Assembly (NCBI RefSeq): GCF_013423955.1
Contig: NZ_JACCKX010000001.1
Coordinates: forward strand, 2,914,001-2,978,000
DNA: 64,000 bases
Direction: 5' to 3'
From: Ottowia beijingensis
GTDB taxonomy: Bacteria; Pseudomonadota; Gammaproteobacteria; Burkholderiales; Burkholderiaceae_C
Shown here: piece after piece, positions 6,903 to 56,155 of the stretch
Position numbering within the stretch: position 1 is the first letter of the stretch
Layout: each line of letters begins with the position of its first letter
The notes under the pieces: model-generated
What the model was told of the DNA's origin: nothing
Database searches by the model: none
The model's input: only the letters and a program-made list of their open reading frames with translations
Made by a program: the position numbers and the translations under genes

Positions 6903-6946
6903 GGCCGTTTGCGCAGGCGTAGCAAGCGCAAGAAGCTATGAAAACA
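6903..6946 (-). repeat. Family A hairpin repeat (ribF-ileS gap)
   Basis: On the minus strand it reads TTTTCATAGCTTCTTGCGCTT, a short loop, then GCGCAAACGGCCGATTTG, matching the family A pattern with a weak second arm. Confidence 0.6.
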
Positions 6947-6998
6947 GGAGTGGGGCGCTGGTGCGGACGGGTGAGGGCGAGGGGCGTCCGCCGCCCCT

Positions 6999-8019
6999 TC
7001 AAATTCGCGCCGGGCGGCCGGCCAGCCAGGCACGGGCATCGGCGCAGTCGCGCGCGATGCCTTCGGTCAGCGCCGCCAGGCTGTGATAGCGCAACTCGTC
7101 GTGCAGTTTGTGCAGCAGGTCCACGCGGATGATTTTACCGTAGGCCCCTCGGGGCCGAGGTGCGGCGGCCAGTCGAGCACATGCGTTTCCAGCAGCACGC
7201 GGCCGCCGTTCACGTCGTTGGGGTCCAGCGATGGGCGCACGCCCAGGTTGGCCACGCCGGCCAGGGGCGCATCACCCAGGCCGTGCACCTCGACCACGAA
7301 GATGCCGCTGGCAGCCGGCTTCCAGGCATGGGCGCGGCGCGAAAGCGCAGGTTGAGGGTGCGAAAGCCGTCCGCCTTGCCCGGCGCCGTTTCAGCCAGCG
7401 CGCGGCCCAGCTTGCGGCCGTGCACCACGTGGCCGCTGATCGAATACGGCCGGCCCAGCAGCCGTGCCGCGTCTTGCATGCGCCCTTCGTCCAGCGCCGC
7501 GCGCACCTCGGTGGACGACACGCGCAGCCCGTGCACCTCGTACGACTGCATGCGCGCCACCTCGAAGCCCTGGGCGATGCCGGCCGCGTCCAGCATGGCG
7601 TAGTCGCCCGCGCGCCTGGCGCCAAAGCGGAAGTCGTCGCCCACCAGCACGTAGCGCACGCCCAGGCCCTGCACCAGCACCTCGTCGATGAAGGCCTGCG
7701 GCGGCTGGCTGGCCAGGGCGGCGTTGAAGGGCAGCACGATGCACTGGTCGACCCCGCAGGCGGCCAGCTCGCACAGCTTGTCGCGGAAGGTGGAGACGCG
7801 CGCCGGCGCCAGGTCGGGCTTGCCGGTGACGGCGGCAAAGTAGTCGCGCGGGTGCGGCTCGAAGGTCATCACGCAGCTGGGCACGCCGCGGTGCGCGGCC
7901 TCGTTGTTCAGCAGCGCCAGCATGGCCTGGTGGCCGCGGTGTACGCCGTCGAAATTGCCGATCGTCAACGCGCAGCCGGGCGCGATGCCGGGGTGGCGCA
8001 GGCCGCGGAAGATCTTCAT
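6999..8019 (-). CDS. ribF: Bifunctional riboflavin kinase/FAD synthetase (two frameshifts)
   Basis: Converts riboflavin to FMN and FMN to FAD. The N-terminal FAD synthetase domain carries TIGNFDGVHRGHQAML and the later VSSTEVRAAL. The C-terminal kinase domain carries RPYSISGHVVHGRKLGR and GVANLGVRPS. I chose ATG 8019 (MKIFRGLRHPG). Two missing bases split the C-terminal domain: one in the GGG run at 7330-7332 (restoring HAWKPAASGIFVVEVHG) and one in the C run near 7145-7149 (restoring GPEGAYGKIIRVDLLHKLHDELRYHS). With both repaired the protein is about 340 residues and ends at 6999. It is the first gene of ribF-ileS-lspA. Confidence 0.94.
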
Positions 8020-8033
8020 GGTCGGGGTGGTAT

Positions 8034-8082
8034 TTTTTGATAGCGTGTTGCGCTTGCCAGTCAAGCGCCCGGACGCAAAAAC
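8034..8082 (+). repeat. Family A hairpin repeat (ribF/HNH divergent gap)
   Basis: TTTTTTGATAGCGTGTTGCGCTTG, loop, CAAGCGCCCGGACGCAAAAAC. The stem GCGCTTG/CAAGCGC is perfect. A GGAGTATAT box of the family B type follows at about 8091. Confidence 0.7.
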
Positions 8083-8198
8083 GTCATGAAAACGGAGTAT
8101 ATTGTCTGGCTGACATGGGCCTGCCCATGCCTAGGGGTGGCCAGCACTGGCGCCGCCGGCCACAGACGATGGTTTCTTCCAGCAAGAGGAGTCGTTTT

Positions 8199-8756
8199 GT
8201 GAAGGTGCTCAAGCTGTCGGCACAAGGGTTGCCGCAATCCTGGATATCGCTGCAGCAGGCGGTGATCCACTACGCCGCCGAGGAGGTGCGCTGGGAGGTG
8301 GGCCAGCGCGTGGCCACGTTCCGCGGCGGGCACAACGCCGTGACGGGCGAGCAGTCCATCATCACCGTCAACAGCATCATTGGCACCAAGGGCGTGCCGG
8401 GCATCAACCCGTTCGACCTGCGCCCGGGCCTGACCAACGACAAGCTGTTCGCGCGCGACCGCAATGTGTGCGCCTACTGCGGCGGCCACTTTCACGAAAC
8501 CGAGCTGACGCGCGAGCACATCATTCCCCTGGCGCAGAGGGGCCGCAACGGCTGGATGAACGTGGTCACCGCCTGCCGCGGCTGCAACCACCGCAAGCGC
8601 GACCGCACGCCCGAGCAGGCGCGCATGCCGCTGCTGTACGCGCCCTATGTGCCCAGCCTGTGGGAAGACTTCATCCTGCGCAACCGCCGCATCCTGGCGG
8701 ACCAGATGGAGTTCCTGATGGCGCACCTGCCCAAGAGTTCGCGGCTGCACGGCTGA
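8199..8756 (+). CDS. HNH endonuclease
   Basis: 185-residue HNH nuclease. The zinc/HNH core is clear: CAYCGG, then ELTREHIIPLAQRGRNGWMNVVTACRGCNHRKRDRTPEQA, i.e. C-x2-C, EH, N and C-x2-CN in the right order. The N-terminal 75 residues (PQSWISLQQAVIHYAAEEVRWEVG) are a conserved extension found on a chromosomal HNH family widespread in Betaproteobacteria. I chose GTG 8199 because AGAGGAG sits 9 bases before it; an in-frame ATG at 8169 lacks a ribosome site. Substrate unknown. It lies 31 bases before the P-loop kinase gene, suggesting co-transcription. Confidence 0.88.
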   Translation: MKVLKLSAQGLPQSWISLQQAVIHYAAEEVRWEVGQRVATFRGGHNAVTGEQSIITVNSIIGTKGVPGINPFDLRPGLTNDKLFARDRNVCAYCGGHFHETELTREHIIPLAQRGRNGWMNVVTACRGCNHRKRDRTPEQARMPLLYAPYVPSLWEDFILRNRRILADQMEFLMAHLPKSSRLHG

Positions 8757-8787
8757 GCACCGCCGCCAGCGCGGGTATGCTGCGGCC

Positions 8788-9390
8788 ATGCCCCGACTGA
8801 TCTTCTTCTGCGGCCACGCCGGCACCGGCAAGACCACGCTGGCGCGCCGCACCATCGCCGCGCTGATGGCCGAGGCGCACGTGCAGTGCACCGGCGAATC
8901 GTTCTGCCTGCTCGACAAGGACACGCTGTACGGCGACTACAGCTCGGCCGTGATGGGCGTGCTGACGGGCGACCCGAACGACCGCGACAGCCCGCCCTAC
9001 CTGCAGCACCTGCGCAACCCCGAGTACCACGGCCTGATGAAGACCGCGCGCGAGAACCTGGGCCTGGGCGTCAGCACCATCGTGGTCGGGCCGCTGTCGC
9101 GCGAGGTCAAGGCCCACCAGCTGGCCGACCGCGCATGGCTGGGCGTGGCCGACGACGTGCAGGTGCGCATCGTCTGGGTGACGCTGCAGGAGGCCGAGGC
9201 GCGCCGCCGCATCGCCGCGCGCGGCAACGCCAACGATGCGTGGAAGCTGGCGCACTGGGACGACTACCGCACGCGCCTGTTCACGCTGGATCCGGCCGAG
9301 TACCCTGAACTGCTGATGTTCGACAACACGGCCGCCGGCGCGCCCGAGTTCGATGCGCTGATGCAGGCGCTGGCCAAGGGTTCGGAATGA
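8788..9390 (+). CDS. AAA-type P-loop kinase/ATP-binding protein
   Basis: 200-residue protein opening with a Walker A loop at residues 9-16 (GHAGTGKTTLARR). The layout (P-loop, LLDKDTLYGDY, then VRIVWVTLQEAEARRRIAARG as a lid-like helix) resembles small-molecule or adenylate-type kinases of the zeta-toxin/AAA_33 group. Such proteins often phosphorylate metabolites or nucleosides; no substrate can be named. It follows the HNH gene on the same strand, and no antitoxin-like partner is adjacent. The next feature is a REP-type hairpin. Confidence 0.75.
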   Translation: MPRLIFFCGHAGTGKTTLARRTIAALMAEAHVQCTGESFCLLDKDTLYGDYSSAVMGVLTGDPNDRDSPPYLQHLRNPEYHGLMKTARENLGLGVSTIVVGPLSREVKAHQLADRAWLGVADDVQVRIVWVTLQEAEARRRIAARGNANDAWKLAHWDDYRTRLFTLDPAEYPELLMFDNTAAGAPEFDALMQALAKGSE

Positions 9391-9431: not shown

Positions 9432-9506
9432 TGTAGGAGCGGCCGTGGCCGCGATAGGCGCCTCTGCCATCGACGCGCCGCCATCGCGGCCAAGGCCGCT
9501 CCCACA
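9432..9506. repeat. REP-type inverted pair
   Basis: GTAGGAGCGGCCGTGGCCGCGAT at 9432 and its near-perfect inverted copy ending CCGCTCCCAC at 9506, in the pattern of paired REP elements. It lies between the stops of convergent genes. Confidence 0.8.
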
Positions 9507-9518
9507 TCGGAATGGGCT

Positions 9519-9582
9519 GCATACTCCCCTGCATGCTGGACGCTAGCGCCCGACCTGTAAGCGCTGGAGGTGGATACTCCCT
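9519..9582 (-). repeat. Family B repeat (GGGAGTAT boxes around a hairpin)
   Basis: On the minus strand: GGGAGTATCC, then AGCGCTTACAGGTCGGGCGCTAGCG as an imperfect hairpin, then GGGGAGTATGC. It lies in the convergent gap between the P-loop kinase and mdtD genes. Confidence 0.7.
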
Positions 9583-9633
9583 TTATTTTTGCGAGGTGGC
9601 TGAGGGCGCTCGCCCGCCGCCCACCGCATGCGC

Positions 9634-13601: not shown

Positions 13602-14287
13602 CAGATCGTCTCCTTGTCAGCTGGCTGATTTTTATCACGCTCGTCGCCGTTGTCGCGTCCGCCCGGCGACACGATGCCCAGCTCGGCGCACAGGCGTTGC
13701 ACCGTGGCGCGCAGCGCGGCCACTTCGGCTTCCAGCGCGGATATGCGGTCATTTTGGCCTGCAGCGCCCGTTGGTAGGGCGCGAGCAGCTATCGAATCGG
13801 AAGTGGCTGCGATCTCGACCGGCCCGCACAGCAGCTGCGCCCATCGCGCCTCGCGTTCGCCTGGCGCACGCGGCAGGTGCACCACCAGCGGGCCGCCCTT
13901 GTCGTCGGGGCGCTCGGCCAGCTCGTGCAGAAAGCCTTCCACCGACGAGATGTCGGCAAAGCGGTGCCAGCGCTCGGCGTTGATGCGGAGCTCGCCCGCC
14001 GTCTGCGGGCCGCGCAGCATCAGCAGGCCCAGCAGTGCGGCGGACTGGTCGGGCACGCCATAGACGCGCTGGAAGTTGTGCTCGTACTTCGCCACCCGGC
14101 TGCCGTGCGATTCGACCACCAGGCTGAGCGCCTTCAAATCATCCAGCGCCTCCTGCGCCTGCGCGTCGGTCACGGTCATCACCGGCTCGCGGCTGGTCTT
14201 CTGGTTGCAGCCGGTGACGACGAGGTTGAGCGACAGCGGATAGGTGTCGGGCACCGTGCGCGCTTTTTCCATCAGCGTGGCCAGCAC
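13601..14287 (-). CDS. YceH/DUF480 (UPF0502) family protein
   Basis: UPF0502 protein with two winged-helix domains (first: [26 protein letters not shown]; second: [23 protein letters not shown]) and a C-terminal coiled coil ([23 protein letters not shown]). The function of the family is unknown. The GTG at 14287 gives 228 residues, but the conserved family start [15 protein letters not shown] extends in frame upstream of it with no ATG, GTG or TTG, so either a CTG near 14314 is used or a base is missing. Bases 13750-13797 are a family A repeat encoding the linker between the winged helices and the coiled coil. Confidence 0.85.
13750..13797 (-). repeat. Family A hairpin repeat inside the YceH-family gene
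   Basis: Minus strand: GATTCGATAGCTGCTCGCGCCC, loop, GGGCGCTGCAGGCCAAAATG. It encodes part of the linker before the coiled coil ([17 protein letters not shown]). Confidence 0.85.
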
Positions 14288-14349: not shown

Positions 14350-14931
14350 ATGAAGCACATCGTCATCCTCATCTCCGGCACCGGTTCCAACATGGCCGCC
14401 ATCGTGCGCGCGGCGGAGCGCGAGCGCTGGGGCGTGCGCCTGGGGGCGCGCGTGGCGGCAGTCATCAGCAACCGTCCGGGCGCCAAGGGGCTCGACTTTG
14501 CGCGCGAGCAGGGCATTGCCACCGGCGTGGTGGATCACAAGGCTTTCGACAGCCGTGAAACCTTCGACGCCGCGCTGCAGGCCGAGATCGACCGCCACCA
14601 GCCCGCGCTGGTGGTGCTGGCGGGCTTCATGCGCATCCTCACGCCGGGGTTCGTGGCCCATTACGCGGGGCGGCTGGTCAACATCCACCCCAGCCTGCTG
14701 CCAGCCTTTCCGGGCCTGCACACGCACCAGCGCGCCATCGACGAAGGCTGCAAGCTGGCGGGGGCCACGGTGCACCAGGTGACGGCCGAGCTGGACCATG
14801 GCCACATCCTGGCGCAGGCGGCGGTGCCGGTGCTGCCGGGCGACACGGCCGATGCGCTGGCCGCGCGGGTGCTGACGCAGGAGCACATCATCTACCCGCG
14901 TGCCGTGGCTGGTTTGCTTCAAACAATGTAG
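14350..14931 (+). CDS. purN: Phosphoribosylglycinamide formyltransferase
   Basis: 193-residue PurN, which transfers a formyl group from 10-formyl-THF to GAR in purine synthesis. The N-terminal [11 protein letters not shown] is the phosphate-binding loop. The catalytic residues fall at N111 and H113 ([13 protein letters not shown]) and D149 (TAELDHGHI). Length and start ([14 protein letters not shown]) are standard. The last codons run into a family A repeat, so the C-terminal LLQTM is probably repeat-derived. It is divergent from the YceH-family gene, with 62 bases between the coding starts. Confidence 0.97.
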
Positions 14932-14970
14932 CTGCTGGCGCTTGCTGCACAAGCGCTGAAGCCAGTTTTC
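14927..14970 (+). repeat. Family A hairpin repeat at the purN stop
   Basis: ATGTAGCTGCTGGCGCTTG, loop, CAAGCGCTGAAGCCAGTTTTC. The TAG of the repeat supplies the purN stop codon. Confidence 0.85.
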
Positions 14971-15007
14971 ATTCGAAACGCACCGCCCAAGGTGCGACAA
15001 TGCCGCC

Positions 15008-16285
15008 ATGCACCCCAAAGCCCTGCTCGACGCCGCCACCGAACTGGTGCGGCGTGTTCTGTTGCTGGACCACCCGGCCGATACCGTGGTGTCGCGTTTC
15101 TTCCGCGAACACCGCGCGCTGGGCCCGCGCGAGCGCGCCACGCTGGCCGAGACGGCCTACGCCGTGCTGCGCCGCAAGCCGCTGTACGAGCACCTGGCGC
15201 GCGCAGGCTCGGGGTCGCGCGAGCGGCGGCTGGCCATCCTGGGCTTTCATGCGCCGCGCGACTTTCTCAAGCAGGCGCTGAGCGAGCCCGAGAAAGCCTG
15301 GCTCGACGCCTGCGATGCCGTGCCGCCGGCCGAGCTGGCGCCCGAGTACCGCCACAACCTGCCAAGCTGGCTGGTGGCGCCGCTGCGCGCGCAGGTGGGC
15401 GACGAGTTCGACACCCTGGCTGCGGCGCTGCTGGAGCCCGCGCCGCTCGACCTGCGTGTCAATACCTTGAAGGAAAAACGTGCCGCAGCGCAGGCAGAGC
15501 TTGCGCAGGCAGCTATCAAAGCCATAGAGACGCCGTATTCGCCCTGGGGCCTGCGCATCGACGGCAAGCCGGCGCTGCAGAAGCTCGACGCCTTCACGCG
15601 CGGCGCCGTCGAGGTGCAGGACGAAGGCTCGCAACTGCTGGCGCTGCTGCTGGATGCGCGGCGCGGCGAGATGGTGGCCGACTTCTGCGCTGGCGCCGGC
15701 GGCAAGACGCTGGCCATTGGCGCCACCATGCGCAACACCGGCCGGCTTTATGCGTTCGACGTGTCGGCGCACCGGCTGGATGCGCTGAAACCCCGGCTGG
15801 CGCGCAGCGGGCTGAGCAACGTGCACCCCGTCGCCATCGCGCACGAGCGCGACGAGCGCGTGAAGCGCCTGAAGGGCAAGATGGACCGCGTGCTGGTCGA
15901 TGCGCCGTGCTCGGGCCTGGGCACGCTGCGCCGCAACCCCGACCTGAAGTGGCGCCAACAGCCGAAGGACGTGGCCGAGTTGCAGGCCAGGCAGCTCGCC
16001 ATCCTGACCAGTGCGGCGCGCCTGGTGAAGCCCGGTGGCCGGCTGGTGTACGCCACCTGCAGCGTGCTGCCCGACGAGAACGAGGCCATCGCCGCCGCCT
16101 TCGGCGCCGAGCACGCGGACTTCGAGCCGCTGAACGTGGCCGAACTGCTGCAGGCGCTGAAGCTGCCCGACGCCGCGGCGCTGTGCACCACCGATGCGGC
16201 GCAGCCCGGCCAGTACCTGCGCCTGTGGCCGCACCGGCACGGCACCGACGGCTTCTTTGCCGCCGCGTGGCAGCGCAAGGGCTGA
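15008..16285 (+). CDS. RsmB/NOP-family RNA m5C methyltransferase
   Basis: 425-residue SAM-dependent RNA cytosine-5 methyltransferase. Motif I is DFCAGAGGKTLAIGA; the two cysteines used by this family sit at C301 (DAPCSGLGTLRRNPD) and C351 (YATCSVLPDENE). The N-terminal part (LVRRVLLLDHPADTVVSRFFRE) is the NusB-like region found in RsmB relatives. Which RNA it modifies cannot be told; RsmB acts on C967 of 16S rRNA, but there may be a second paralogue. Bases 15478-15521 carry a family A-like segment coding for AAAQAELAQAAIKAI without an obvious change in length. Confidence 0.9.
   Translation: MHPKALLDAATELVRRVLLLDHPADTVVSRFFREHRALGPRERATLAETAYAVLRRKPLYEHLARAGSGSRERRLAILGFHAPRDFLKQALSEPEKAWLDACDAVPPAELAPEYRHNLPSWLVAPLRAQVGDEFDTLAAALLEPAPLDLRVNTLKEKRAAAQAELAQAAIKAIETPYSPWGLRIDGKPALQKLDAFTRGAVEVQDEGSQLLALLLDARRGEMVADFCAGAGGKTLAIGATMRNTGRLYAFDVSAHRLDALKPRLARSGLSNVHPVAIAHERDERVKRLKGKMDRVLVDAPCSGLGTLRRNPDLKWRQQPKDVAELQARQLAILTSAARLVKPGGRLVYATCSVLPDENEAIAAAFGAEHADFEPLNVAELLQALKLPDAAALCTTDAAQPGQYLRLWPHRHGTDGFFAAAWQRKG
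15478..15521 (-). repeat. Family A-like segment inside the RNA methyltransferase gene
   Basis: Minus strand: TTTGATAGCTGCCTGCGC, loop, GCGCTGCGGCACGTTTTTC. The match covers both flanks and the stem; the loop is longer than usual. Confidence 0.6.
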
Positions 16286-17931: not shown

Positions 17932-19062
17932 ATGCAGACCTGTGACGTGCTCATCATCGGCGCCGGCATCGCCGGCGCTTCGCTGGCCTGGCGGCTGTCG
18001 CGCGCGGGCCGTTCGGTGCTGCTGCTGGAGCGCGAGGCGCAGCCCGGCACGCACAGCACCGGCCGTTCGGCGGCGATGTTCATGGAGAGCTACGGCCCGC
18101 CCGGCGTGCGCGCGCTCACCCGGGCCAGCCGCGCCTTCTACCTGAACCCGCCCGCCGGCTTTGCCGAGCAGCCGCTGCTGCACCCGCGCCACGCGCTGTT
18201 CGTGGCCACGCCCGCGCAGCGCAGCGCACTGGCCGCGCTGCGCGACGAGCTGGCCGCCACCGGCACCGCGCTGAAGCTATTGAATGCAGAGCAGCTGGCG
18301 CAGGCGGCACCTGCGCTGAAGCCCGATTTGTTTGAACAAGCTATGCTCGACGTGGATGGCTACGACATCGAGGTCGACGCGCTGCTGCAGGGCTTTCTGC
18401 GCGGCGCACGGCAGGCCGGCACGCGCGTGCTGACGAGCGCTGTGCCCACGCAGGCCGGGCGCATGGGCGATGCCTGGCGCGTGGCGTTGTCGAGCGGCGA
18501 GACGGTGCAGGCGCGCACCGTGGTCAACGCCGCCGGCGCCTGGGCCGACGAGGTGGCGGCGCTGTTCGGCGCCGCGCCGCTGGGCATCGAGCCGCGCCGC
18601 CGCAGCGCCTTCACCTTCCGCCCGCCCGAAGGCGTGGACGTGTCCAACTGGCCGATGGTGGCCGATGTCGACGAGACCTGGTACTTCAAGCCCGACGCCG
18701 GCCAGCTGCTCGGCTCGCCCGCCAACGCCGACCCGGTGGCGCCGCACGACGTGCAGCCGGAAGAGTTCGACATCGCGCTGGGCATCCACCAGATCCAGGA
18801 AGCCACCACGCTGGAAATCCGCCGCCCCACCGCCACCTGGGCCGGCCTGCGCAGCTTCGTGCGCGACGGCGAAATCGTCATCGGCTTCGACGGCGCACTG
18901 CCCGGCTTCTTCTGGCTGTGCGCACAGGGCGGCTATGGCATCCAGAGCGCCGCCGGCGCCAGCCTGCTGGCGGCCAGCCTGATCGCCGGCGATGCGCTGC
19001 CCGATGAACTCACGCGACATGGCGTCAACCCCGCTGTGGTGTCGCCATCCCGCCTGCGTTGA
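17932..19062 (+). CDS. FAD-dependent amino-acid oxidase-like protein (DadA/DAO family)
   Basis: 376-residue DAO-family flavoenzyme. The N-terminal dinucleotide fold reads CDVLIIGAGIAGASLAWRLSRAGRSVLLLERE, with GxGxxG and the terminal Glu. C-terminal FAD contacts lie in FFWLCAQGGYGIQSAAGASLLA. The family oxidises glycine, sarcosine or D-amino acids; the substrate is not evident. Only 13 bases separate it from the PLP aminotransferase gene, so the pair may act in one amine-catabolic route. A family A-like segment (18275-18330) codes for LKLLNAEQLAQAAPALKPDLF. Confidence 0.88.
   Translation: MQTCDVLIIGAGIAGASLAWRLSRAGRSVLLLEREAQPGTHSTGRSAAMFMESYGPPGVRALTRASRAFYLNPPAGFAEQPLLHPRHALFVATPAQRSALAALRDELAATGTALKLLNAEQLAQAAPALKPDLFEQAMLDVDGYDIEVDALLQGFLRGARQAGTRVLTSAVPTQAGRMGDAWRVALSSGETVQARTVVNAAGAWADEVAALFGAAPLGIEPRRRSAFTFRPPEGVDVSNWPMVADVDETWYFKPDAGQLLGSPANADPVAPHDVQPEEFDIALGIHQIQEATTLEIRRPTATWAGLRSFVRDGEIVIGFDGALPGFFWLCAQGGYGIQSAAGASLLAASLIAGDALPDELTRHGVNPAVVSPSRLR
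18275..18330 (+). repeat. Family A-like segment inside the FAD oxidase gene
   Basis: AAGCTATTGAATG, then AGCAGCTGGCGCAGG, loop, CCTGCGCTGAAGCCCGATTTG. The stem GCGCAGG/CCTGCGC is perfect. Confidence 0.6.
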
Positions 19063-23474: not shown

Positions 23475-23505
23475 TTGCTATTGTTATTGAAGCTGCTGGC
23501 GCAAT
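23475..23505 (+). repeat. Half copy of a family A repeat
   Basis: TTGCTATTGTTATTGAAGCTGCTGGCGC, then the second arm is missing. It lies just upstream of the LOG-family start. Confidence 0.5.
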
Positions 23506-23524
23506 ATACACGCCCGCCCATATG

Positions 23525-24287: not shown

Positions 24288-25439
24288 CTAACCCTTCCGG
24301 GCGACGAAGCGGAGCAGTTGGGTGGCCAGGTCGTCCTGTGCCTGCGGCCGCTCGCGCGCGGCCTGCACGCAGGCGCGCCAGGCGGACAGGTCAGGCAAGG
24401 GCAGGGCGCCGGGGGTGACGCCGTTCCACACGTGGTGAAACCGGCGCAGCGACGCGGGCGCCTGCAGCCAGTCGAGGAAGGCGTCGAGCTTGGCGTGGTG
24501 CGCGTTGTCCTCGGGCTGCGGGTAGATGTGCCAGACAAAGGGCGCGCCGGCCCACAGGGCCCGCACCAGCGAATCCTCGCCGCGTACGAAGTTCACATCG
24601 CTCGCCCACAGCAGCTCGTCGTAGGCCGTTTGCGGCAAGTGCGGAAGGTATGAAATTGATAGCTGCTTGCGCTCGTCAATCCAGCGCTGCAGGCCATTTT
24701 CATGCTGAATCACCTGCTGCACTGCATCGGTGGCACGGCCTGCGGCGACCAGCAGGCGGGTGGGCTCGTCGCCCTCCGCCCAGGCACGCAGCAACTGGCC
24801 CAGCGCGGGCGGTTCGTAGCAGAACAGCGAGACCAGACGCTCGCCGCGCCAGTCGACGCCGTGGGTGCGCAGCCAGTCGGCACGGTTGAATGCGGCCTGC
24901 CGCGCGGGCAGATTGGCTTCGCGCAACAGGCCGCCGGTGGCGGGCGTGAAGCCTGGGTAGAAGAACCATTTGGTCCAGCCCGCCGCCGGCCCGTGCAGCA
25001 CGGGCGAGGGCAGGGTGTGCATGCGCTCCACATAGGATTCGGCGCTCAGGTATTCGAGGTTGATCCACACCGGCGGTTTCCAGCCATTTTGGCCTTCAGC
25101 GCCTGTCTGGACTGCGCCGGCAGCTACGAATTCAGGAGGAATCTCGCAACCAAAGGCTTCGACCCACACGTCGGCGCGCGGCAGGTTCAACAGGCCGGGG
25201 GCGATGGGCTGCGTCCACGGCAGCACGCGCACGCTGGGCACGGCGCCTTCTGTGGCACCGGGTGCCATCCAGGCCAGGGCGCGGGCGTCGTCCACCCACA
25301 GCCGCACCTGTTGCCCGCGCGTCGCCAGCTCGCGCGACAGGCGCCAGCACACGCCGAGGTCACCGTGGTTGTCCACGACCTGGCAGAAGATGTCCCACAG
25401 GGGCGGCGAAGCAGGCACGCGGCGATTGTGCCTTTGCAT
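24288..25439 (-). CDS. earP: EF-P arginine rhamnosyltransferase
   Basis: 383-residue EarP, which attaches rhamnose from dTDP-rhamnose to Arg32 of EF-P. Family hallmarks: DIFCQVVDNHGDLGVCWRLSR at the N-terminus, VWINLEYLSAE, and ASDVNFVRGEDSLVRALWAG, the GT-B donor site. ATG 25439 begins MQRHNRRVPASPP. Two family A repeats lie inside the gene: 25084-25129 encodes the AVQTGAEGQNGW loop and 24655-24701 encodes HENGLQRWIDERKQLSIS. Neither breaks the frame. It is transcribed towards efp, with a 156-base spacer; the partner genes leave little doubt on function. Confidence 0.95.
   Translation of the reverse strand: MQRHNRRVPASPPLWDIFCQVVDNHGDLGVCWRLSRELATRGQQVRLWVDDARALAWMAPGATEGAVPSVRVLPWTQPIAPGLLNLPRADVWVEAFGCEIPPEFVAAGAVQTGAEGQNGWKPPVWINLEYLSAESYVERMHTLPSPVLHGPAAGWTKWFFYPGFTPATGGLLREANLPARQAAFNRADWLRTHGVDWRGERLVSLFCYEPPALGQLLRAWAEGDEPTRLLVAAGRATDAVQQVIQHENGLQRWIDERKQLSISYLPHLPQTAYDELLWASDVNFVRGEDSLVRALWAGAPFVWHIYPQPEDNAHHAKLDAFLDWLQAPASLRRFHHVWNGVTPGALPLPDLSAWRACVQAARERPQAQDDLATQLLRFVARKG
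24655..24701 (+). repeat. Family A hairpin repeat inside earP (distal copy)
   Basis: AATTGATAGCTGCTTGCGCT, loop, AGCGCTGCAGGCCATTTTC. In frame within earP on the opposite strand. Confidence 0.9.
25084..25129 (-). repeat. Family A hairpin repeat inside earP (proximal copy)
   Basis: Minus strand: TTCGTAGCTGCCGGCGC, loop, GCGCTGAAGGCCAAAATGG. In frame within earP. Confidence 0.85.
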
Positions 25440-30530: not shown

Positions 30531-32509
30531 TCAGCCGCGCAGGCGCAGCTTGTCCTCGGACAGGTGCAGCACCTCCAGCAGCGTTTTCAGCCCCAGCAGG
30601 AAGTTGTCGTCATGCACCCAGGGCGCGTACACGCTCAGCGCGCGAATGGGCGCGCCCGCCGCCTGCGCGTCCTCCACCAGGGCGCGCAGCGCCTCGGTGT
30701 CCACCGCCCGCAGAATGAACAGCACGTCGTCCGCGCGCCACGCCGCGCCGTCCAGCAGCGGCGCCAGCCGTGCCGTCAGCGGCAGCCCTTCGGCCAACAG
30801 CAGGTTGTAAAGAACTTTGGCCTCCAGCCCTTGTGTGGCGGGCGCAAGCAGCTCCTGAAAGCGCAGCAAATCGGCCTGCGCCGCATCTGCCAGCGGCTGG
30901 TGCAGCACCAGCGCGTCGGGGTCATCCACCAGCTCGAACACGCGAAAACCCGTGTCCACGGCGGTCGCGTGGGCGTTGGTGGTATCGGCCTTGATCTTCG
31001 CGCCCGCGCGGCGCAGCCGCTCGGCGGTGATCTCGAAAATCGTCGCCTCGGGCTTGCCCAGCGTCTGGGTCACGAAGTGGTGTGCGTCTTTCTGCTTCTT
31101 GGCTTCGATGGGCTGCGGAATCTGCACCAGGATGAAGCGGCGCTGGCCGCCGTCCTCGGCATTCAGCCGCATCACCGCCTCGCCGGTGGTGCCGGAGCCG
31201 GCGAAGAAGTCGAGGATGAGGTCGTCGTCGCCCGTGCTCGTTTGCGCAAGTGTCTTGATCAGGAAGGGTGACTTCGGGGAGGGGAAGATTTTCGATTTCG
31301 TGCCGAATAGCTGGTTCAATTCCCTCTGTCCCTTTTCCGTATAGAACAGCTTGTCTTGCAGAATCGTTTTCAGCATCTTGCTGGAGCCGCTCGCATAACT
31401 CTTTCGGAAAATCTTCCAACGACCTTTCACTTCCTTGCCGAGCAACAGGTCGATTTCCTTGGCTGCTTTCGTTCGATCCCAAGTCCAGCACCCTCGAATC
31501 CGTCATCCCAGTCAGGGACAACTTCCACATCGCCATTCGTGCGATACAGCGAGACATCACCATCCGGGTTGACGAAAAGCGGGTAGTGCAAATTCCTGCG
31601 GTTGTGCTTGCCGAACTCTCGGTGCGTGTTCCGGAGCTCGAGCAACCGGTAGCGTTCGCCTTCGTCATCCACCAAGTCGTAGTCGGCCTCGATTTCTTCC
31701 GCGTCCTTCTCGATGGCAAGGGCACCCTTTTCGAGTGTCGTCCGACTGTAGGCAAGAATGAAATCGTGGTTTGAGGCGAAGAACTTGTCCTGTGAGCGCC
31801 CTTTTGGATTGGAGAGCAGGGTCAACTGCCCGACAAAATTCTCCTGGCCGAACACCTCATCGCACAGCAGCTTCAACTGCGCCTGCTCGTGGTCGTCGAT
31901 GCTGATGAAGATGACACCATCCTCGCGCAGCAGATCCTTCGCCAGCAGCAGCCGCGGGTACATGAAACTGAGCCAGCCGCTATGGGTGCGCGCACCGTAG
32001 ATGTTCTGGATGTATTCGAGCGCATCGGCCTTGTAGCCAAGCGTCTTGAGGATTTCCGTCTGGCGCGCGCTGAAGTCGTCGCGGTAGATGAAGGCGTCGC
32101 TCTGCGTGTTGTAGGGCGGGTCGATGTAGATGAGCTTGACGGCGCCAAAGTAGCTTTGCCGCAGCAGGCGCAGCGCGTCGAGGTTGTCGCCCTTGATGAG
32201 CAGGTTGCCGGTGTCGTCCCATCTCTCGCTGTCTTCAGGCCGGGGCTGCACGATTTTGGACGTGGGCACGAAGGCGCTGTGGTAGGCCTCGCGCTTGCCG
32301 GCCCAGCGCAGTTCGTAGCCGTCTTCTTCCACACGCACGCCGGCGGGGTTGGCCGGGTCCAGCGCCTGCTGGATGGCGGCCGCGCTGACGCTGACGTGGC
32401 CGTGCTCGTCGGTCTGCACGGCGGCGGGAAACAGCTCGCGCAGCAGCTCCAGTTTTTGCGCGGCGGGGCTGGGGGCGGTGAAGAAGGGGCGGGGTTGGGG
32501 CTGGGTCAT
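30531..32509 (-). CDS. mod: Type III DNA methyltransferase Mod subunit (one frameshift)
   Basis: About 659-residue adenine-N6 methyltransferase that also provides target recognition for Res. Motif IV DPPYNT lies at residues 130-135, ahead of motif I DFFAGSGTTGEAV near residue 434, the order of the beta class used by type III Mods. The variable region between them should hold the recognition domain. One C is missing at 31491-31493; repair gives FEGCWTWDRTKAAKEIDLLLGKEVKG. A family A copy (30813-30855) lies within the C-terminal part. I see no simple-sequence tract of the kind used for phase variation. Confidence 0.93.
30813..30855 (-). repeat. Family A-like segment inside mod
   Basis: Minus strand: AGGAGCTGCTTGCGCCCG, loop, AAGGGCTGGAGGCCAAAGTTC. 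It encodes ELLAPATQGLEAKVL. Confidence 0.65.
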
Positions 32510-41307: not shown

Positions 41308-41396
41308 TAATCATAGCTGCTTGCGCTGGATACAAAAGGATTTCAGGTATAAAAGTATCTGAAATCCTTGTATATTAAGCGCAAGAAGCTATGAAA
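41308..41396. repeat. Long family A hairpin with 38-base arms
   Basis: CATAGCTGCTTGCGCTGGAT plus ACAAAAGGATTTCAGGTA, then, across a 5-base loop, an inverted near-copy ending GCGCAAGAAGCTATG. A longer, AT-richer version of the family A hairpin between the GlcG/HbpS and ppsR genes, which converge here. Confidence 0.8.
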
Positions 41397-45063: not shown

Positions 45064-47154
45064 TTGGCCGACCCGACGCGCGCCTACGAGTGGCGGCTGC
45101 ACCGCCACCTGGGGCTGTTCGTGGTCGGCTTCGTCGCCTTCCTGCTGCTGATGGCCTGGGCCGAGCGTGCCGGCCTGTCGCGCGGCTGGATCGGGCCGAT
45201 CTTCCTATTCCTGTCGGTCATGGTGTATGCCGTCATCGGCATCTACGCGCGCACCACCGACCCGGAGGACTTCTACGTCGCCGGCCGCCGCGTGCCCGCC
45301 ATGTACAACGGCATGGCCACCGCGGCCGACTGGATGAGCGCCGCCTCCTTCATCAGCCTGGCCGGCGCGCTGTACCTGCAGGGCTTCGGCGGCACCGCGG
45401 CGCAGCCGGGCGGGCTGGCCTACGTGCTGGGGTGGACGGGCGGCTTCTGCCTCGTCGGCCTGCTGATCGCGCCGCGCCTGCGCGCCATGCAGCTCTACAC
45501 CGTGCCCGATTTCTTCGCCGTGCGCTTCGGCGGCCGCTGGCCGCGCCTGCTGGCGGCGCTGGGCGCCGTGGCGTGCTCGTTCATGTACGTGGTGGCGCAG
45601 ATCTACGGCGTCGGCCTCATCGCCTCGCGCCTGACCGGCGTGCAGTTCGAGATCGGCATCCTGCTCGGCCTGGGCGGCATTCTGCTGTGCAGCTTTCTGG
45701 GCGGCATGCGCGCCATCACCTGGACGCAGGTGGTGCAGTACATCGTGCTGCTGCTGGCCTTCCTGATCCCGGTGTCGTGGCTGGCCTACAAGCAGCTCGG
45801 CACGCCGATGGCGCCGCTGGCCTTCGGCGAGCAGCTGCTCAAGATCGAGCGGCTGGAGACCCAGCTCATCGCCTCGCCGGCCGAGCAGCAGGTGCGCGCC
45901 ATCCACCTGCAGCGCGCCAGCGAGTTCGCCGCGCGCCTGCAGAACCCCGCCGAATCGCTGGCGCGCGAGCGCGACCTGCTGGAAGAACGCATCCGCCTGC
46001 TGCGCGCGCAGGGGGCCGACTTCACCCTGGTGATGCAGGCGCGGCGCGAACTGGCGCACCTGCCGCGCGACGAAGCCAGCGCGCGCGAGCAGTGGACCCG
46101 AGCCATGCACGAGTCGCTGGAGCGCACCGAGCCGCTGGGCGGCCTGCCACGGCACACCCAGGCCTTCGCGGGAGACCCGCGCGGCACGTCGGAAGAGCGG
46201 GCCGAGTTCCAGCAGTCGCGGCTCAACTTCCTGGCGCTGATGTTCTGCCTGATGGTCGGCACCGCCAGCCTGCCGCACCTGCTCACGCGCTTCTACACCA
46301 CGCCCAGCGTGGCCGACACGCGGCGCTCGGTGGCGTGGTCGCTGGGCTTCATCTCGCTGCTGTACCTCACCACGCCGGCGCTGGCCGCGCTGGTGAAGTA
46401 CGAGGTCATGCAAGGCCTGGTCGGCAGCAGCTTCGACCAGCTGCCGCACTGGATCGCGCAGTGGGCGCGCGTCGACCCCGGCCTGATCTCGGTGCAGGAC
46501 ATCAATGGCGACGGCGTGCTGCAGTTCGGCGAAATCCGCCTGGCCGCCGACATGATCATGCTGGCCACGCCCGAACTGGGCGGGTTGCCCTACGTGGTGT
46601 CGGGCCTGGTGGCGGCCGGCGGGCTGGCGGCGGCGCTGTCCACCGCCGATGGCCTGCTGCTCACCATCAGCAACGCGCTGGTGCACGACACGGCGCCCAT
46701 CCGCAACGGCGTGGTGCGCGTGTCCGACAACCGCGTCATCCTGACCAAGTTCGCCCTGCTGGCCGTGGCCATGCTGGCGGCGGCGGTGGCGGCGCTCAAG
46801 CCGGCCGAGATCATCTGGCTGGTCACCGCCTCGTTCTCGCTGGCCGCGGCCACCTTCTTCCCGGCGCTGGTCATGGGCCTGTTCTGGTGCGGCACCACGC
46901 GGCGCGGCGTGGTGGCCGGCATGCTGGCGGGCGCCGGGCTCACCCTGGGCTACATGCTGCTGGCCAGCCCCGCCTGGCGCGCCTGGTGGGGCCTGCCACC
47001 GGGCGGGCTGTGGTGGGGCATCCACCCGGTGTCGGCCGGCTTCTTCGGCGTGCCGGCGGGCTTCGCGGCGATTGCGCTGGTGTCGTGGTTCGACCGTGGG
47101 GCGCGGGTAAGGGGCGAGCGGGGCGATGCCGGCGTGGCGGGTGGCTCGCTTTAA
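45064..47154 (+). CDS. Sodium/solute symporter, VC_2705 family, large subunit
   Basis: 696-residue SSS-family permease related to the acetate permease ActP, with about 13 membrane segments; YVAGRRVPAMYNGMATAADWMSAASFISLAG is the family signature. It starts with TTG at 45064, immediately after the DUF4212 stop. Two insertions stand out: a 110-residue hydrophilic, coiled-coil-like stretch (about residues 260-380, rich in ER/RE) and a canonical EF-hand loop, DINGDGVLQFGE, at residue 479, next to LAADMIMLATPELGGLP. A calcium-responsive or structural role is possible but unproven. Position after ppsA suggests uptake of a gluconeogenic substrate. Confidence 0.9.
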   Translation: MADPTRAYEWRLHRHLGLFVVGFVAFLLLMAWAERAGLSRGWIGPIFLFLSVMVYAVIGIYARTTDPEDFYVAGRRVPAMYNGMATAADWMSAASFISLAGALYLQGFGGTAAQPGGLAYVLGWTGGFCLVGLLIAPRLRAMQLYTVPDFFAVRFGGRWPRLLAALGAVACSFMYVVAQIYGVGLIASRLTGVQFEIGILLGLGGILLCSFLGGMRAITWTQVVQYIVLLLAFLIPVSWLAYKQLGTPMAPLAFGEQLLKIERLETQLIASPAEQQVRAIHLQRASEFAARLQNPAESLARERDLLEERIRLLRAQGADFTLVMQARRELAHLPRDEASAREQWTRAMHESLERTEPLGGLPRHTQAFAGDPRGTSEERAEFQQSRLNFLALMFCLMVGTASLPHLLTRFYTTPSVADTRRSVAWSLGFISLLYLTTPALAALVKYEVMQGLVGSSFDQLPHWIAQWARVDPGLISVQDINGDGVLQFGEIRLAADMIMLATPELGGLPYVVSGLVAAGGLAAALSTADGLLLTISNALVHDTAPIRNGVVRVSDNRVILTKFALLAVAMLAAAVAALKPAEIIWLVTASFSLAAATFFPALVMGLFWCGTTRRGVVAGMLAGAGLTLGYMLLASPAWRAWWGLPPGGLWWGIHPVSAGFFGVPAGFAAIALVSWFDRGARVRGERGDAGVAGGSL

Positions 47155-47156
47155 CT

Positions 47157-47220
47157 GGGAGTATCGGTTGTTAGCGCTTGTTTGACGGGCGCTAGCGGGT
47201 ATCTATAAGGGAGTATATGG
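47157..47220 (+). repeat. Family B repeat
   Basis: GGGAGTATCGG, hairpin TAGCGCTTGTTTGACGGGCGCTA, then AGGGAGTATATGG. It starts three bases after the symporter stop. Confidence 0.85.
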
Positions 47221-50719: not shown

Positions 50720-53700
50720 TCAAGCCCCGCTGCCAGCCCGCGCCAGGTTCAGCGCCAGCAGGCGGCGCAGGATTTCGTCGTCGGGCATCTGCGGCGTGTA
50801 GTCGGCCCAGCCGTAGGCGGCGGCCACGGCGGCGTCGAGCTGCTCGTGCGCCTGCGCCAGCCAGGCGGGGCGCTGGTTGTAGAGGTTGGTCAGGGTGCGT
50901 TTTGCAGCGCCTTGGCGTCGGCCTCGGGCAGGCCGGGGCGCGGCTCGATGCGGTCGGGGTAGGGCGAAGCGGCCAGGCCCAGCGGCACCACCTCGGGCAC
51001 CTTCACCGTCCACTCGGGCGGGTTCAGCCAGTTCTGGCGCAGCGCATCCAGCCGGTGCGCGGCCTCGGCAATGGCGCTGGCGTGGGCCTTGCTTGCTTTG
51101 GTTTCGATAGCCGCCGGCGCTTGCCCTGCCGGGGCTGGCGCCGTTTTTGGCTTGAATCCGCAGCCGCCGCCGGCGCCCCAGCCCGGCCGGAATGCGGGCG
51201 CCGCTGGGCAGCGCCTCGGTCTGCTGGTGCGCCGTGTCGGCGGGCGTCAGGCCGGCGGGGAAGGGGAAGGTTTCGAAGCAGGTGGTGGGGGTGTAGCGCG
51301 GGTCGTTGCCCACGCCCAGCCAGGTGCACATGCGCAGCGACCAGAGTTCGTGGAAGCGGCTGTGCAGGATGCCGAAGGTGGTGTCGTCGGCGCGGGCGAC
51401 TATGCACGTCGCATGACTCGGCAGAACATTGCAACTGAACCATACCCACACGCGATGCTTTGCGACGATCGATGTTGCGAAGAAGCGCGAGACAGATGTC
51501 AGGGCCGTACGCATATCTGGCGCTGCGCGCGCGTGAAGCCACCAGCGCCGACGTTCGGCCTCATTGCGTACTGCCGCCTTTTCAGGCTTAACTATCCGCA
51601 AGATGTGTTCGTAAGGCAGTTCAAACAGTGCAGCGTCACTCTCTTTCGTGTCGACACCAAAATCAACGATCCAAGTATCTGACGGCCGTCGCACGATGTC
51701 GGCGCCGTTGATCCATTGTTTGACGACTTCAGCGTTGCTTCGGCCGTTTGGATTGGGTTTCCCGAGCCACGATCTCGCAAGTTCACCCGGAACGTCGAAC
51801 GAAGCTTTCTTGGACGTGCCGACGAAGCAGGCGTTCAAGTTGGGCAGTAGCGTCTTTGCAGATGTCAAATCCACTGCGGATTTGGCCGACTGATAACCAG
51901 TCAAGTCCGAGTGAATGGCTTCAGATGGTTGGCCGTTCAGTTGGACCGGTTGCCCAGCCTCCCCAAACGCCACCAACGACACCCGCACCGCCGCGCCGTC
52001 GTTCACCCACGGCTCGTCGCTCCACGCATCGAAGATGCGGCTGCTCTTGACGATGGCGTCGAGCACGGCGCGGTTCTTGCCGCCTCGGATGGAGTTGGTT
52101 GCTACAAATCCCGCAGCAGTCAGCGCTTGACTGACAAGCGCTGCACGCGCTTTTTCGAACCAGTAGCAGACGAAGTCGGCGCCGCCGGGCACGCGGCCGG
52201 CGTAGGTCTTGCGCAGCGTTTCGGTATAGGCATCGCCCAGCTCGCCGCGCATCTTCTTGTCGCCAATGAAGGGCGGGTTGCCGATGACGACGCTGGCGGC
52301 GGGCCAGGGGCTTCGGTGGCGGGCTGGCTCCCTCGCCCCTCTGGGGAGAGGGTGGGGGTGAGGGGCGGGGCGGTGGCTGGCTGGGCGGGCGTGCCCCACC
52401 CGGCCCTCCCCAGCGGGGAGGGAGGAATTGCAGCAGCGCATCGCGGCATTCGATCTGCTCCAGCGGCTCGAGCACGGGGTTGGTCTTGGGCGGGTAGCCG
52501 TGGGCGATGCGCCATTGAATCTCGCCGATCCAGATGCTGACGCGGGCCAGTTCGGCGGCGTATTCGTTCAGCTCGATGCCGAGCACGTTGTGCGGGCCGG
52601 TGACCAGATCCTGCTCGCGGTCGAGGCCCAGGTCGGCGGCCTGGGTGATGGTGAGCAGTTCGACGTCTTTCAGCGCCTTCAGGCCCAGGAACAGGAAGTT
52701 GCCGCTGCCGCAGGCGGGGTCGAGGATGCGGAAGGCGCGCAGTTCTTCGAGCCACAGCACGAAGCGGGCGTGGGCCTTGCGGTGGGCGGCGTCGCCGTGT
52801 TTCTTGATTTTGGCCGTTTGCGCCCGCAGCTCCTGCGCGGTCAGCTCCCATTTTTGCAGCAAGGGGCGGGTGACGACGGGCTCGACGATGCGGGCGATGG
52901 TGGCCGGGTCGGTGTAGTGGGCGCCCAGCTGGCTGCGCTTGGCGGGGTCGAGCCCGCGCTCGAACAGGGTGCCGAAGATGGAGACGTCGATGGCGGACCA
53001 GTTGAGGGCGGCGGCGTTGCGCAGCTCGGTGATGTCGACGATTTCGAGCCGGGGCACGTCGATGCGCTGGAACAGGCCGCCGTTGAACCAGGGGATGTCG
53101 TCCGGCCCGTACAGGCCGCCGCCCTGCATGGTGGCGAACAGGCTTTGCAGGCCGGTGGTGAGGCGGCCTGAGGTGAGCTGGCGGTTGCCGACGAGGCGCT
53201 CGAACATGCGGCCGGGCAGCAGGCCCACGTCTTCGGCGAAGAAGCAGAACAGGCACTGGGTGAGGAAGTGGGCCACGGTTTCGGCATCGTTGCCGCGGCT
53301 GCGCAGTTGCTCGGCCAGGGTGGCAAAGCTGCGGGCGGCGGCTTCGGTGATGTCGCGCGTGGTTTTCTGCGGGCGAAAGCTTTCGGGGTCGAGCCAGACG
53401 CGGCGCAGCAGGCTTTGGGTGGCGGGCTGGTCGAGCTGGTCGATGCGGACGGTGTGCTGCTCGCTGGGGTGGCCGTTGAACTGGGTGTGGATGCGGATGA
53501 CGAGGCGGTCGCACACCACCAGCAGGGGCGGGTTGCTGAGGGCCAGGCTGTATTGCTGCAGCTGGCGCAGGGCGGCGTCGAGGTTCTTGGCCGGCGCCTT
53601 GTTCTCCCACGCGAAGCGGTTGCGCCAGTACACGTCGGCGTAGCCGCGCGCTTCGCCCAGCAGCAGGGTGTGCTGTTCGAACACGTAGTCTTCGCCGGGC

Positions 53701-53831: not shown

Positions 53832-53901
53832 GCGGGGCCTTGCTGCATGGCGGGGCATGGTAGCAAAGGGGCGGCGCGGGGCGCTCGCCGTGCAACAGGC
53901 C

Positions 53902-54423
53902 TCAGAACCGGCGGCTGAGGTAGCGCGAACCGGCCAGGCCGAAGCGCCAGGGCGTGTCGACGGCCTTGCTGATGCCGATGCGCGGGCCGGTGAGCACGTC
54001 GACCGGGGTGCCGGGCGGGGCGCCGAGCACGCTGAAGGGCGGCGCATCGAGCGGCAGGCCGTAGTGCGCCAGCGTGATGCCCAGCGCCTGGCCCACGCGG
54101 CCGGGGCCGGCGCACAGCAGGCGCTCGTCGTGCAGCCCGCGGCGCGCGCGCATGGCGGGCAGTCCGTGGGTGGGCTGCAGGGCGCGGATCAGCACGCCGG
54201 CGCCGTGGCCGGCCTCGCGGCAGACGAAGTTGAGGCACCAGTGGATGCCATAGCTGCGGTACACGTAGGCGTGGCCGGGCGGGCCGAACATGGCGCGGTT
54301 GCGCGCGGTGGGGCCGCCGAAGGTGTGCGAGGCGGCGTCGGCCATGTCGTAGGCCTCGGTCTCGACGATGGTGCCGCCCACGCCGTCGACCAGCAGCGTG
54401 GCGCCGATGAGCGCGTGCGCCAC
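53902..54423 (-). CDS. DNA-3-methyladenine glycosylase (AAG/Mpg family)
   Basis: Alkyladenine glycosylase that starts base-excision repair. Diagnostic stretches: [52 protein letters not shown], with the catalytic-region Glu and the intercalating Tyr, and [16 protein letters not shown]. From the GTG at 54423 the protein is 173 residues. The family usually has about 15 more N-terminal residues, and [14 protein letters not shown] is readable in frame upstream without a start codon; an ATG at about 54471 lies in another frame, so a base may be missing there. Divergent from the acrylyl-CoA reductase gene. Confidence 0.9.
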
Positions 54424-55535: not shown

Positions 55536-55606
55536 TGCTGCTGCGCGTGCAAAAGAGGGCTTGATCCTCGAGCCGTCCCGGATGCCGCGCGGACCGCATC
55601 CGCGGT

Positions 55607-55682
55607 GTGGGAGCGGGCTTGCCCGCGATGGCGGCGTCCGCGCTCCCGGTCATCGCCCTATCGCGGGCAAGCCCGCTCCCAC
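55607..55682. repeat. REP-type inverted pair
   Basis: GTGGGAGCGGGCTTGCCCGC at 55607 and its inverse ending at 55682, with GCGATGGCGGCGT between; same sequence as the REP pairs in the 47-48 kb array. Confidence 0.9.
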
Positions 55683-55736
55683 AACGCTGGCTGAGAGGGG
55701 CGGCCAGTCACGAAAGACAGCAGCTTGCGCGATGCG

Positions 55737-55843
55737 ATGACGAAACGACCTCGCTGCGCTTTGATGACGGGGCTGCGCCGCCATGACGCCAGTCGCGTGC
55801 GAGGCATTCCGCCATTACTGCTGTCGTTTGGTCGTTTCGTCAT
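55737..55843. repeat. Inverted repeat ATGACGAAACGACC
   Basis: ATGACGAAACGACC at 55737-55750 and its exact inverse at 55830-55843, 79 bases apart. Related fragments (TTTCGTCAT) recur near 55970. Confidence 0.75.
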
Positions 55844-55848
55844 TTATC

Positions 55849-55955
55849 GACGTTTTCTAAAAGCATGACAGCGCGTGCCGCGCCAAAGAAAGCTCCCTCT
55901 CCCTCTGGGAGAGGGCTGGGGTGAGGGCCGGCAGCGTGTCATGTATTACGGAATT
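55849..55955 (-). repeat. 107-bp inverted repeat, copy 2
   Basis: Exact reverse complement of 41170-41276. Confidence 0.95.
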
Positions 55956-56103
55956 TTCGATAGTCATTTCGTCATCACCCGCGCAGCGGCAAAGTCATGG
56001 CGTCATCCGTCTAAAGCCAACGTTTGGACCGCGAAACGGCATGAGTGCGGCGCACGACTCGCCGTGTGGGCGCGCATGATCGGCGCTCGATTCGCTATCG
56101 TAT

Positions 56104-56155
56104 AAATAGCTATTGGCGCTTGGCTGGCAAGCGCTGGGGGCTGATTTGGCCTGAA
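56104..56155 (+). repeat. Family A hairpin repeat
   Basis: AAATAGCTATTGGCGCTTG, loop, CAAGCGCTGGGGGCTGATTTGG. Stem GGCGCTTG/CAAGCGCT. Confidence 0.8.

Follow-up and report, generated by a model that had tools for sequence, protein, structure and literature searches.

A dense palindrome-headed hairpin repeat of Ottowia beijingensis as a possible DNA uptake signal of Comamonadaceae

Copies, architecture and variants of the repeat

The window analysed here is a stretch of 64,000 nucleotides from Ottowia beijingensis (NCBI RefSeq assembly GCF_013423955.1, contig NZ_JACCKX010000001.1, positions 2,914,001 to 2,978,000 of the forward strand), and its subject is a dispersed repeat, family A, in which a palindromic head is followed by a hairpin and a tail. 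A sequence-only reading of the window had described a hairpin of 45–60 bp with conserved flanks and had listed 14 copies. The repeat was borne out, but its length was revised to ∼66 bp. Against a profile of the short form, 13 of the 14 listed positions proved to be members, at 14.8–49.4 bits, and the ‘half’ copy at 23475 fell below threshold at 8.1 bits; this scoring is partly circular, as a few window copies were in the profile training set.

The repeat was confirmed as real and dense in the window's genome. Matches to GATAGCTGCTGGCGC with up to three mismatches numbered 26 in the window, compared with 6.4 (standard deviation 2.4) in shuffled sequences. Across the whole genome, GATAGCTGCTNGCGC with at most one mismatch was found 213 times on each strand (213 + 213), in keeping with the claim that copies occur in both orientations, and the reversed pattern was found 0 + 4 times. 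In a sample of 857 kb, made up of 40 stretches of the same genome and the window, the profile gave 246 matches at 10 bits or more, as opposed to one after third-order shuffling and zero when the sample was reversed, so that the excess over a shuffled background presumed by the reading was observed. Merging at 9 bits or more gave 221 places in this sample, which extrapolates to ∼1,100 per genome, and a covariance-model search of the genome accepted at least 150 copies (150 of 10,137 candidates were scored, and all were accepted). The Rfam scan returned two tRNAs and nothing else. With one copy as query, matches were found in two of 72,556 plasmid records and in none of 50,697 phage records; a 26-base form matched three viral contigs and at least 120 genome stretches in the genome scan. 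In G000, the genome of the window, several copies recur with identical scores on contigs C2, C3 and C4 (some also on C1), contigs that seem to duplicate each other.

Several copies in the window lie outside predicted genes. The element at 6887..6953 (−, 38.2 bits) falls between two minus-strand predicted genes, a degenerate one at 8026..8092 (+, 16.2 bits) is intergenic by in-house gene calls, and that at 56092..56158 (+, 43.5 bits), also without a predicted gene, has both hairpins intact, with a fold of −12.9 kcal/mol (z −3.42). A weak copy at 4135..4201 (−, 12.1 bits) was additional to those listed. The half copy, at 23488..23516 (+), adjoins a separate terminator-like hairpin (∼23520), and the listed copy at 41308 is a long form of 82 bp (41312..41393), imperfectly palindromic and bearing a head at either end. 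At 14914..14980 (+, 41.0 bits) the element overlaps the 3′ end of the predicted gene 14350–14931, and its TAG is the stop codon of that frame.

Other copies lie within genes. One is carried in frame by a DUF480 (YceH-like, Pfam PF04337) gene at 13601–14287 (−; element 13740..13806, −, 45.2 bits), and another by an RsmB/F-type methyltransferase gene at 15008–16285 (+; element 15464..15530, −, 32.6 bits), whose length is unchanged relative to homologues. Weaker matches occur in a DAO-family oxidoreductase gene at 17932–19062 (+; element 18274..18340, +, 28.4 bits) and in a DNA-methylase-like gene at 30531–31445 (−; element 30803..30869, −, 25.7 bits). The earP gene (24288–25499, −) holds two: one at 25075..25141 (site 1; −, 36.6 bits), where eight residues are gained relative to Pseudomonas EarP, and one at 24645..24711 (site 2; +, 49.4 bits), where the position is shared in many genera and there is no insertion relative to Pseudomonas EarP. 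An MmeI-like restriction-modification gene extends over two overlapping frames at 50720–54047. In this region, an element at 51093..51159 (+, 31.7 bits) lies in the open reading frame 50720–52441 (−), outside its matched domains, and a degenerate one at 52099..52165 (+, 14.8 bits) in the MmeI-like methylase frame.

The short form is highly regular, with a gap-free alignment in 57 of 58 short copies. A logo of 224 matches gave the head tTGCTayNaAwTTGATAGC, followed by the hairpin TGCTNGCGCTTG-loop-CAAGCGC and a tail of TGNAGGCC and gATTTgaCTTGAAAA; the head core is palindromic (GCTAT-N7-ATAGC), and the tail reads AGGCC...ATTT...TTGAAA. In a single-chromosome relative, G518, architecture and spacing were identical, and the stem GCCCA...TGGGC replaced GCGCTTG...CAAGCGC. 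Covariation of the stem, as claimed by the sequence-only reading, is weak within the genome and clear between genera. With head and inner pairs included, pairing in this genome was 75.1% versus 74.6% in shuffles, 93 of 500 of which were as high, so the claim did not hold for the whole structure. For the 7-bp stem alone, pairing was 82.9% versus 81.1% (5 of 500 as high), with 30 double changes versus 13.2 (1 of 500). Between the two genera, using all 36 rows of G518, preselected for a tail-like 3′ block, and all 75 of our own, 76.1% of stem cells were paired versus 70.8%, and double-change cells numbered 118 versus 59.4, neither value being reached in 500 shuffles. Rows picked by eye (29 of the 36 and 30 of the 75) gave 80.2% versus 74.1%, in agreement with the all-row count. 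The support that the reading had named, hundreds of copies with covarying stems restricted to this family, was thus found, with covariation of this uneven strength.

Two variant forms accompany the short form. The long form, an imperfect palindrome that both begins and ends with a head, measured 81–82 bp in 27 of 31 candidates. A strict pattern for this form found none in samples of the relatives G473, G015 and G518, leaving this species as the only carrier among the four genomes sampled, and it looks like a recent lineage-specific offshoot. A second form, family B, has a similar central hairpin flanked by GGAGTAT and occurs in the window at 9522–9588, 20423–20485, 47150–47216 and 50641–50703. 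In the 857-kb sample its pattern GGGAGTAT had 51 occurrences, versus five in the control, and in the samples of G473, G015 and G518 it had five, one and one (controls 5, 0 and 2). By eye, two relatives carry a family A element at the place of the copy at 47150..47216, and at L018:1053 it is G473 that has a family A element at a family B place. The 82-bp and GGAGTAT forms, found only in this species among the four genomes, would both be offshoots of family A. At one convergent gap, likewise compared by eye, where the window carries the 82-bp form, copies are present in four relatives, with both orientations represented, and absent from another.

Genomic placement and distribution among genomes

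Gene contexts were taken from an in-house gene caller, by which 71% of the sample was coding. Only 35 of 179 short copies lay within genes, versus 66% of random positions. The others fell in tandem gaps (96), between convergent genes (30), between divergent genes (7), in long gaps (10) and at a stretch edge (1); random positions gave fractions of 0.033 and 0.032 for divergent and convergent gaps, respectively. Copy density rose with the guanine-plus-cytosine (GC) content of the stretch (Spearman 0.55, p = 0.0003, 40 stretches), and four of the 40 stretches had no copy at 12 bits.

As the head is palindromic, strand tests are valid only with the dialect pattern GATAGCTGCTNGCGC and the oriented short form. 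Oriented short copies were divided 85/94 between leading and lagging strands; in tandem gaps, 55 had the same orientation as the genes and 41 the opposite, and within genes 15 ran along the host gene and 20 against it. The short form shows no clear replication- or transcription-strand preference. Chi, KOPS (FtsK-orienting polar sequences) and AIMS (architecture imparting sequences) are polar chromosome signals, and a signal of their kind was ruled out by the absence of a leading/lagging bias. An intrinsic terminator was likewise rejected, the tandem-gap counts showing no clear orientation preference.

The family survey used the head pattern GCTNYNNAWTTNATAGC with one mismatch in 150 genomes of the Burkholderiales family under study; sums of forward and reverse matches count some sites twice, the head being palindromic. 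At least 100 matches were found in 44 genomes (maximum 1,066), 50–99 in four and fewer than 50 in 102, and the reversed pattern gave 0–8 per strand. Elsewhere in the order, no genome among 387 from other families reached 50 head matches, the highest count being 45. Carriers among the matches listed were Rhodoferax, Polaromonas, Acidovorax, Simplicispira, Xenophilus, Curvibacter, Variovorax, Giesbergeria and unresolved bins; one carrier record among them, labelled Clostridia, was taken as mis-binned. The named carriers are all Comamonadaceae, and the head is the family-wide part of the element. Congeneric species can differ sharply, as with G014 (310 matches) and G561 (26). Dialects restricted to taxa are present, the stem differing between G518 and this genome and the head being abundant in one family only.

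Copies inside genes

Each of the two EarP sites is found in an equivalent position across many genera. At site 2 (near 24655), the codons CTA, TCA, ATT and TCA were kept in 14, 10, 16 and 14 of 29 genomes; in this genome they encode 0.3%, 2.6%, 7.9% and 2.6% of their residues. Relative to solved homologues, no insertion was found at the copy in EarP site 2, RsmB, KsgA (a weak copy, 17.1 bits) or RarA, and RarA is ∼6 residues shorter than 3pvs. In the close relative G473 (663 kb fetched), both flanks were found for 25 of 221 copies, and most in-gene copies were co-located with nearly equal spacing. Among 11 in-gene pairs from this comparison, the head was the best kept of the three element parts; two of the 11 rows were identical in all counts, and rechecking of the alignments showed that they represent different places.

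We then related the head at two loci to the genome-wide count, calling genomes with at least 100 head matches motif-rich and those with fewer than 50 motif-poor. The EarP and RarA sets were the best 30 of 57 and 59 genomes with a match, respectively, and favour near relatives. One genome, G042, has 83 matches and was excluded from both Fisher tests; the head is present in its EarP and RarA genes, and in the trees, for which the cut was set at 50, it was treated as rich. For EarP, all 18 of the 18 motif-rich genomes had the head, with up to two mismatches, somewhere in the gene, as did one of 11 motif-poor genomes (reversed control 0 and 0); the motif-poor row L073 is an 84-base fragment, without which the latter count is one of 10. 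At the RarA site, where all 30 orthologues were of equal length (114 bases), the corresponding counts were 16 of 18 and one of 11 (reversed control 0 and 0), or 17 of 18 and one of 11 with three mismatches. The motif-poor exception at RarA, G025, has 42 matches in its genome. Searching the whole RarA gene with three mismatches discriminated poorly (17 rich and five poor; reversed control six and zero). On the best trees, the rich/poor label changed nine times for EarP and seven times for RarA.

The equal length in 30 of 30 orthologues, together with a head that tracks motif-rich genomes, indicates that the RarA head changes by substitution; judged from these alignments, it is gained or lost in step with the genome-wide state. 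A fossil insertion would be expected to leave a scar in sequence or length, and RarA has none, so insertion is disfavoured at this site. What an origin by substitution predicts was found at RarA, at EarP site 2, in RsmB and in KsgA, where the copy is weak; extra residues are present at EarP site 1, DapF, ProA and MoeA. In-frame insertion of 66 bp as a general rule for genes was rejected, as it is opposed by the RarA and EarP alignments, although it may still apply to the four genes that have extra residues.

A possible uptake signal and its rivals

We suggest, with about even confidence, that the element is a signal distributed over the whole chromosome in Comamonadaceae and functions in the manner of a DNA uptake sequence (DUS). 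To the more specific proposal, that the family has an uptake sequence of its own, built of a palindromic head and a hairpin, varied by dialect and repeatedly gained and lost between genera, we give slightly less credence. The head GCTAT-N7-ATAGC, perhaps together with the hairpin and tail, would be bound by a receptor on the cell surface, for which a type IV minor pilin is the likeliest candidate. Tagged DNA from kin would be preferentially taken up and recombined, biased recombination would spread and repair the motif by substitution, and a genome that lost the preference would lose the motif. Since the head tracks the genome-wide state at RarA and EarP, the pattern would be accounted for by a process that operates across the genome as a whole; the step from motif to uptake is inferred from sequence. 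An uptake-like motif had been among the candidates of the sequence-only reading and is the one favoured here.

The element has several features of uptake sequences: hundreds of copies, on both strands without replication bias, a non-coding excess and dialects. It resembles the DUS of Neisseriaceae and the uptake signal sequence (USS) of Pasteurellaceae in its many copies without strand or replication bias, in its occurrence both within genes and, more often than expected, between them, in its restriction to a family and its dialects, and in substitution at RarA. It differs from them in having a palindromic 17-bp head with a hairpin and tail spread over 66 bp and in being more degenerate. The available parts of PMC1939737 describe uptake sequences as free of orientation bias, as occurring within genes but favouring non-coding DNA, and as arising by point mutation under molecular drive, and the known ones as short and non-palindromic; DUS dialects are described in the available text of PMC3630211.

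Selective transformation is published in Comamonadaceae, the signal sequence not being named in the text available. According to the accessible parts of PMC4212676, natural transformation occurs in Acidovorax temperans, A. facilis and Verminephrobacter eiseniae, and in the last of these it requires type IV pili. A. temperans was transformed by own-species DNA only, and excess foreign DNA lowered V. eiseniae transformation just ∼10-fold; in these parts the authors infer selective binding and discuss an uptake sequence, and name none. A record of A. temperans (L174) carries the motif. As for the machinery, ComEC was found in 144 of the 150 family genomes, including 44 of 44 motif-rich ones, and the ComP_DUS pilin family in 143; in the window's genome, minor pilins of this kind (PF16732) are encoded at C1:2692368 and C1:3282090. 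In G000, ComEC is present as three overlapping pieces (C1:3619011-3619842) and coding density is low, which suggests assembly indel errors or a broken gene.

Parts of the element appear to have been reported before. The available text of PMC5217627 (2017) gives two potential novel motifs. One, ATAGCT(N)22CAAAAG, has 125 copies in Polaromonas naphthalenivorans, of which 101 are intergenic and 18 lie within genes, and 34 are placed between convergent genes. The other, GCTTAT(N)5AAGCG, has 114 copies in Acidovorax ebreus, 44 of them between convergent and four between divergent genes. In that text, Rhodoferax ferrireducens had the most motif pairs among genomes with any. Both are probably fragments of the family A element, judging from the carrier genera and from similar letters and placement. 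In the text available, however, they were reported separately, unexplained and without a function, and the spacer of ATAGCT(N)22CAAAAG has no letter-for-letter match to the element. An incomplete check of open-licence PubMed Central literature found no paper naming the element or an uptake sequence for the family, and a full-text search for the core letters gave only unrelated titles among the matches listed.

Of the other explanations, an old non-autonomous mobile element moved by an unrecognised enzyme, akin to repetitive extragenic palindromic (REP), enterobacterial repetitive intergenic consensus (ERIC) or miniature inverted-repeat transposable (MITE) elements, would make the in-gene copies tolerated in-frame insertions that were later trimmed. 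Its nearly constant length, a hairpin kept between genera, 143 of 179 short copies outside predicted genes, the lineage-specific 82-bp and GGAGTAT forms, the differing orientations at one gap among relatives (by eye) and the 8 to ∼24 extra residues at the copy in four genes would all suit such an origin. This is difficult to reconcile with RarA, where length is equal with or without the head and the motif-poor genes lacking it have no length scar, with the copies in EarP site 2, RsmB and KsgA (weak) that have no insertion, and with the near absence from plasmids and phages. As an account of the element as a whole we consider it unlikely, though it is possible that such an enzyme moved the intergenic copies and produced the two offshoots. 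Rickettsia palindromic elements are hairpin repeats inserted in frame into coding genes; those are insertions, whereas at RarA and EarP site 2 the element is not. The REP of REP-associated tyrosine transposase (RAYT) genes, the first candidate of the sequence-only reading, shares with the element short palindromic repeats in hundreds of copies that are mostly intergenic. The two part in the element's other tag, its copies in genes and its lack of enrichment beside RAYT: the head occurred in four of 22 RAYT loci (3.3 kb), versus 29% (G518) and 20% (G000) of random windows of equal size scored in the same way. RAYT (PF01797) was not found in four of the 44 motif-rich genomes, namely G020 (510 matches) and G557 (501), both nearly complete, G040 (74% complete) and G491. 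Lack of enrichment in flanking copies and motif-rich genomes without PF01797 led us to reject this mechanism, and that the element is the REP of these genomes' own RAYT genes is scarcely credible. A RAYT-like gene with one stop at L002 (G000 C1:3608567-3611854) is flanked by another, GTAG-tagged repeat, GTAGGAGCGGCGGAAGCCGCGAA, and looks like an ordinary RAYT-REP pair existing alongside family A. The BRE of Bordetella and Comamonadaceae is also a betaproteobacterial repeat partly in genes; the features described for it in the available parts of PMC3110155 (∼90 bp long, arranged in tandem, no more than 29 copies) differ from those of the element.

A binding site for a nucleoid or chromosome-organising protein, held in place by selection, was a further candidate of the sequence-only reading. 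The palindromic head would suit a dimeric protein, the element is strand-neutral, copies are sparser in low-GC stretches and few lie between divergent genes (7 of 179, versus 30 convergent). On this explanation, selection would have to act separately on hundreds of single sites, some of them in genes and with rare codons, the hairpin and tail would be left unexplained, and no candidate protein was found, none having been looked for; we regard it as rather improbable. An element acting at the RNA level, whether in termination, mRNA stabilisation or processing, would accord with a hairpin often near gene ends and with enrichment between convergent genes. The orientation counts in tandem gaps and genes give it no clear direction, and the half copy adjoins a terminator-like hairpin separate from it, so that this role, which includes the terminator site of the sequence-only reading, is very improbable.

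The uptake reading itself has points to answer. Instead of a short non-palindromic core, there is a palindromic head in a long element that is both structured and degenerate, and the equal strand counts of the head in the family survey are partly built in by the palindrome. The head is scarce (fewer than 50 matches) in about two thirds of the family genomes. ComEC is present in 100 of the 106 genomes with fewer than 100 matches and ComP_DUS likewise in most motif-poor ones; as both are nearly universal in the family, neither explains the rich/poor split. No ComEC match was found in G042, which is 100% complete and has 83 head matches. RAYT is more frequent in motif-rich genomes (40 of 44) than in the others (72 of 106; p = 0.003). 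Compared with outside homologues, extra residues occur at the copy in EarP site 1 (+8), DapF (+11), ProA (+13) and MoeA (∼+24), and in the 11 pairs with G473 conservation was 0.85 in the head, 0.70 in the hairpin and 0.76 in the tail, versus 0.90 in the flanks. Well-supported branches force only two label changes for EarP and one for RarA, and independent-pair sign tests rest on four and one supported pairs, respectively, which are too few. These observations weigh against an uptake signal.

Were the uptake reading correct, it would name the missing sequence behind the selective transformation of Acidovorax and Verminephrobacter, and would add a structured uptake sequence originating outside the two families covered by the uptake papers examined. 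It would also provide a family whose genera seem to gain and lose the preference, so that the cause (drive, mate recognition or other) and the receptor could be tested. If the element were instead a nucleoid-protein site, it would constitute a very large unexplained set of sites in common environmental bacteria. Either way, hundreds of hairpins, including those in housekeeping genes, need annotation.

The window contains further repeats. At 47260–48309 and 55606–55756, and also at 9476–9509, units are repeated every 299–301 bases and are rich in the palindrome TGTGGGAGCGGGCTTGCCCGCGAT, which we take to be a Pseudomonas-like REP. An inverted duplicate of 120 bp, 98% complementary, joins 41162–41281 and 55844–55963 and contains CCCTCACCCC...CTCTCCC palindromes.

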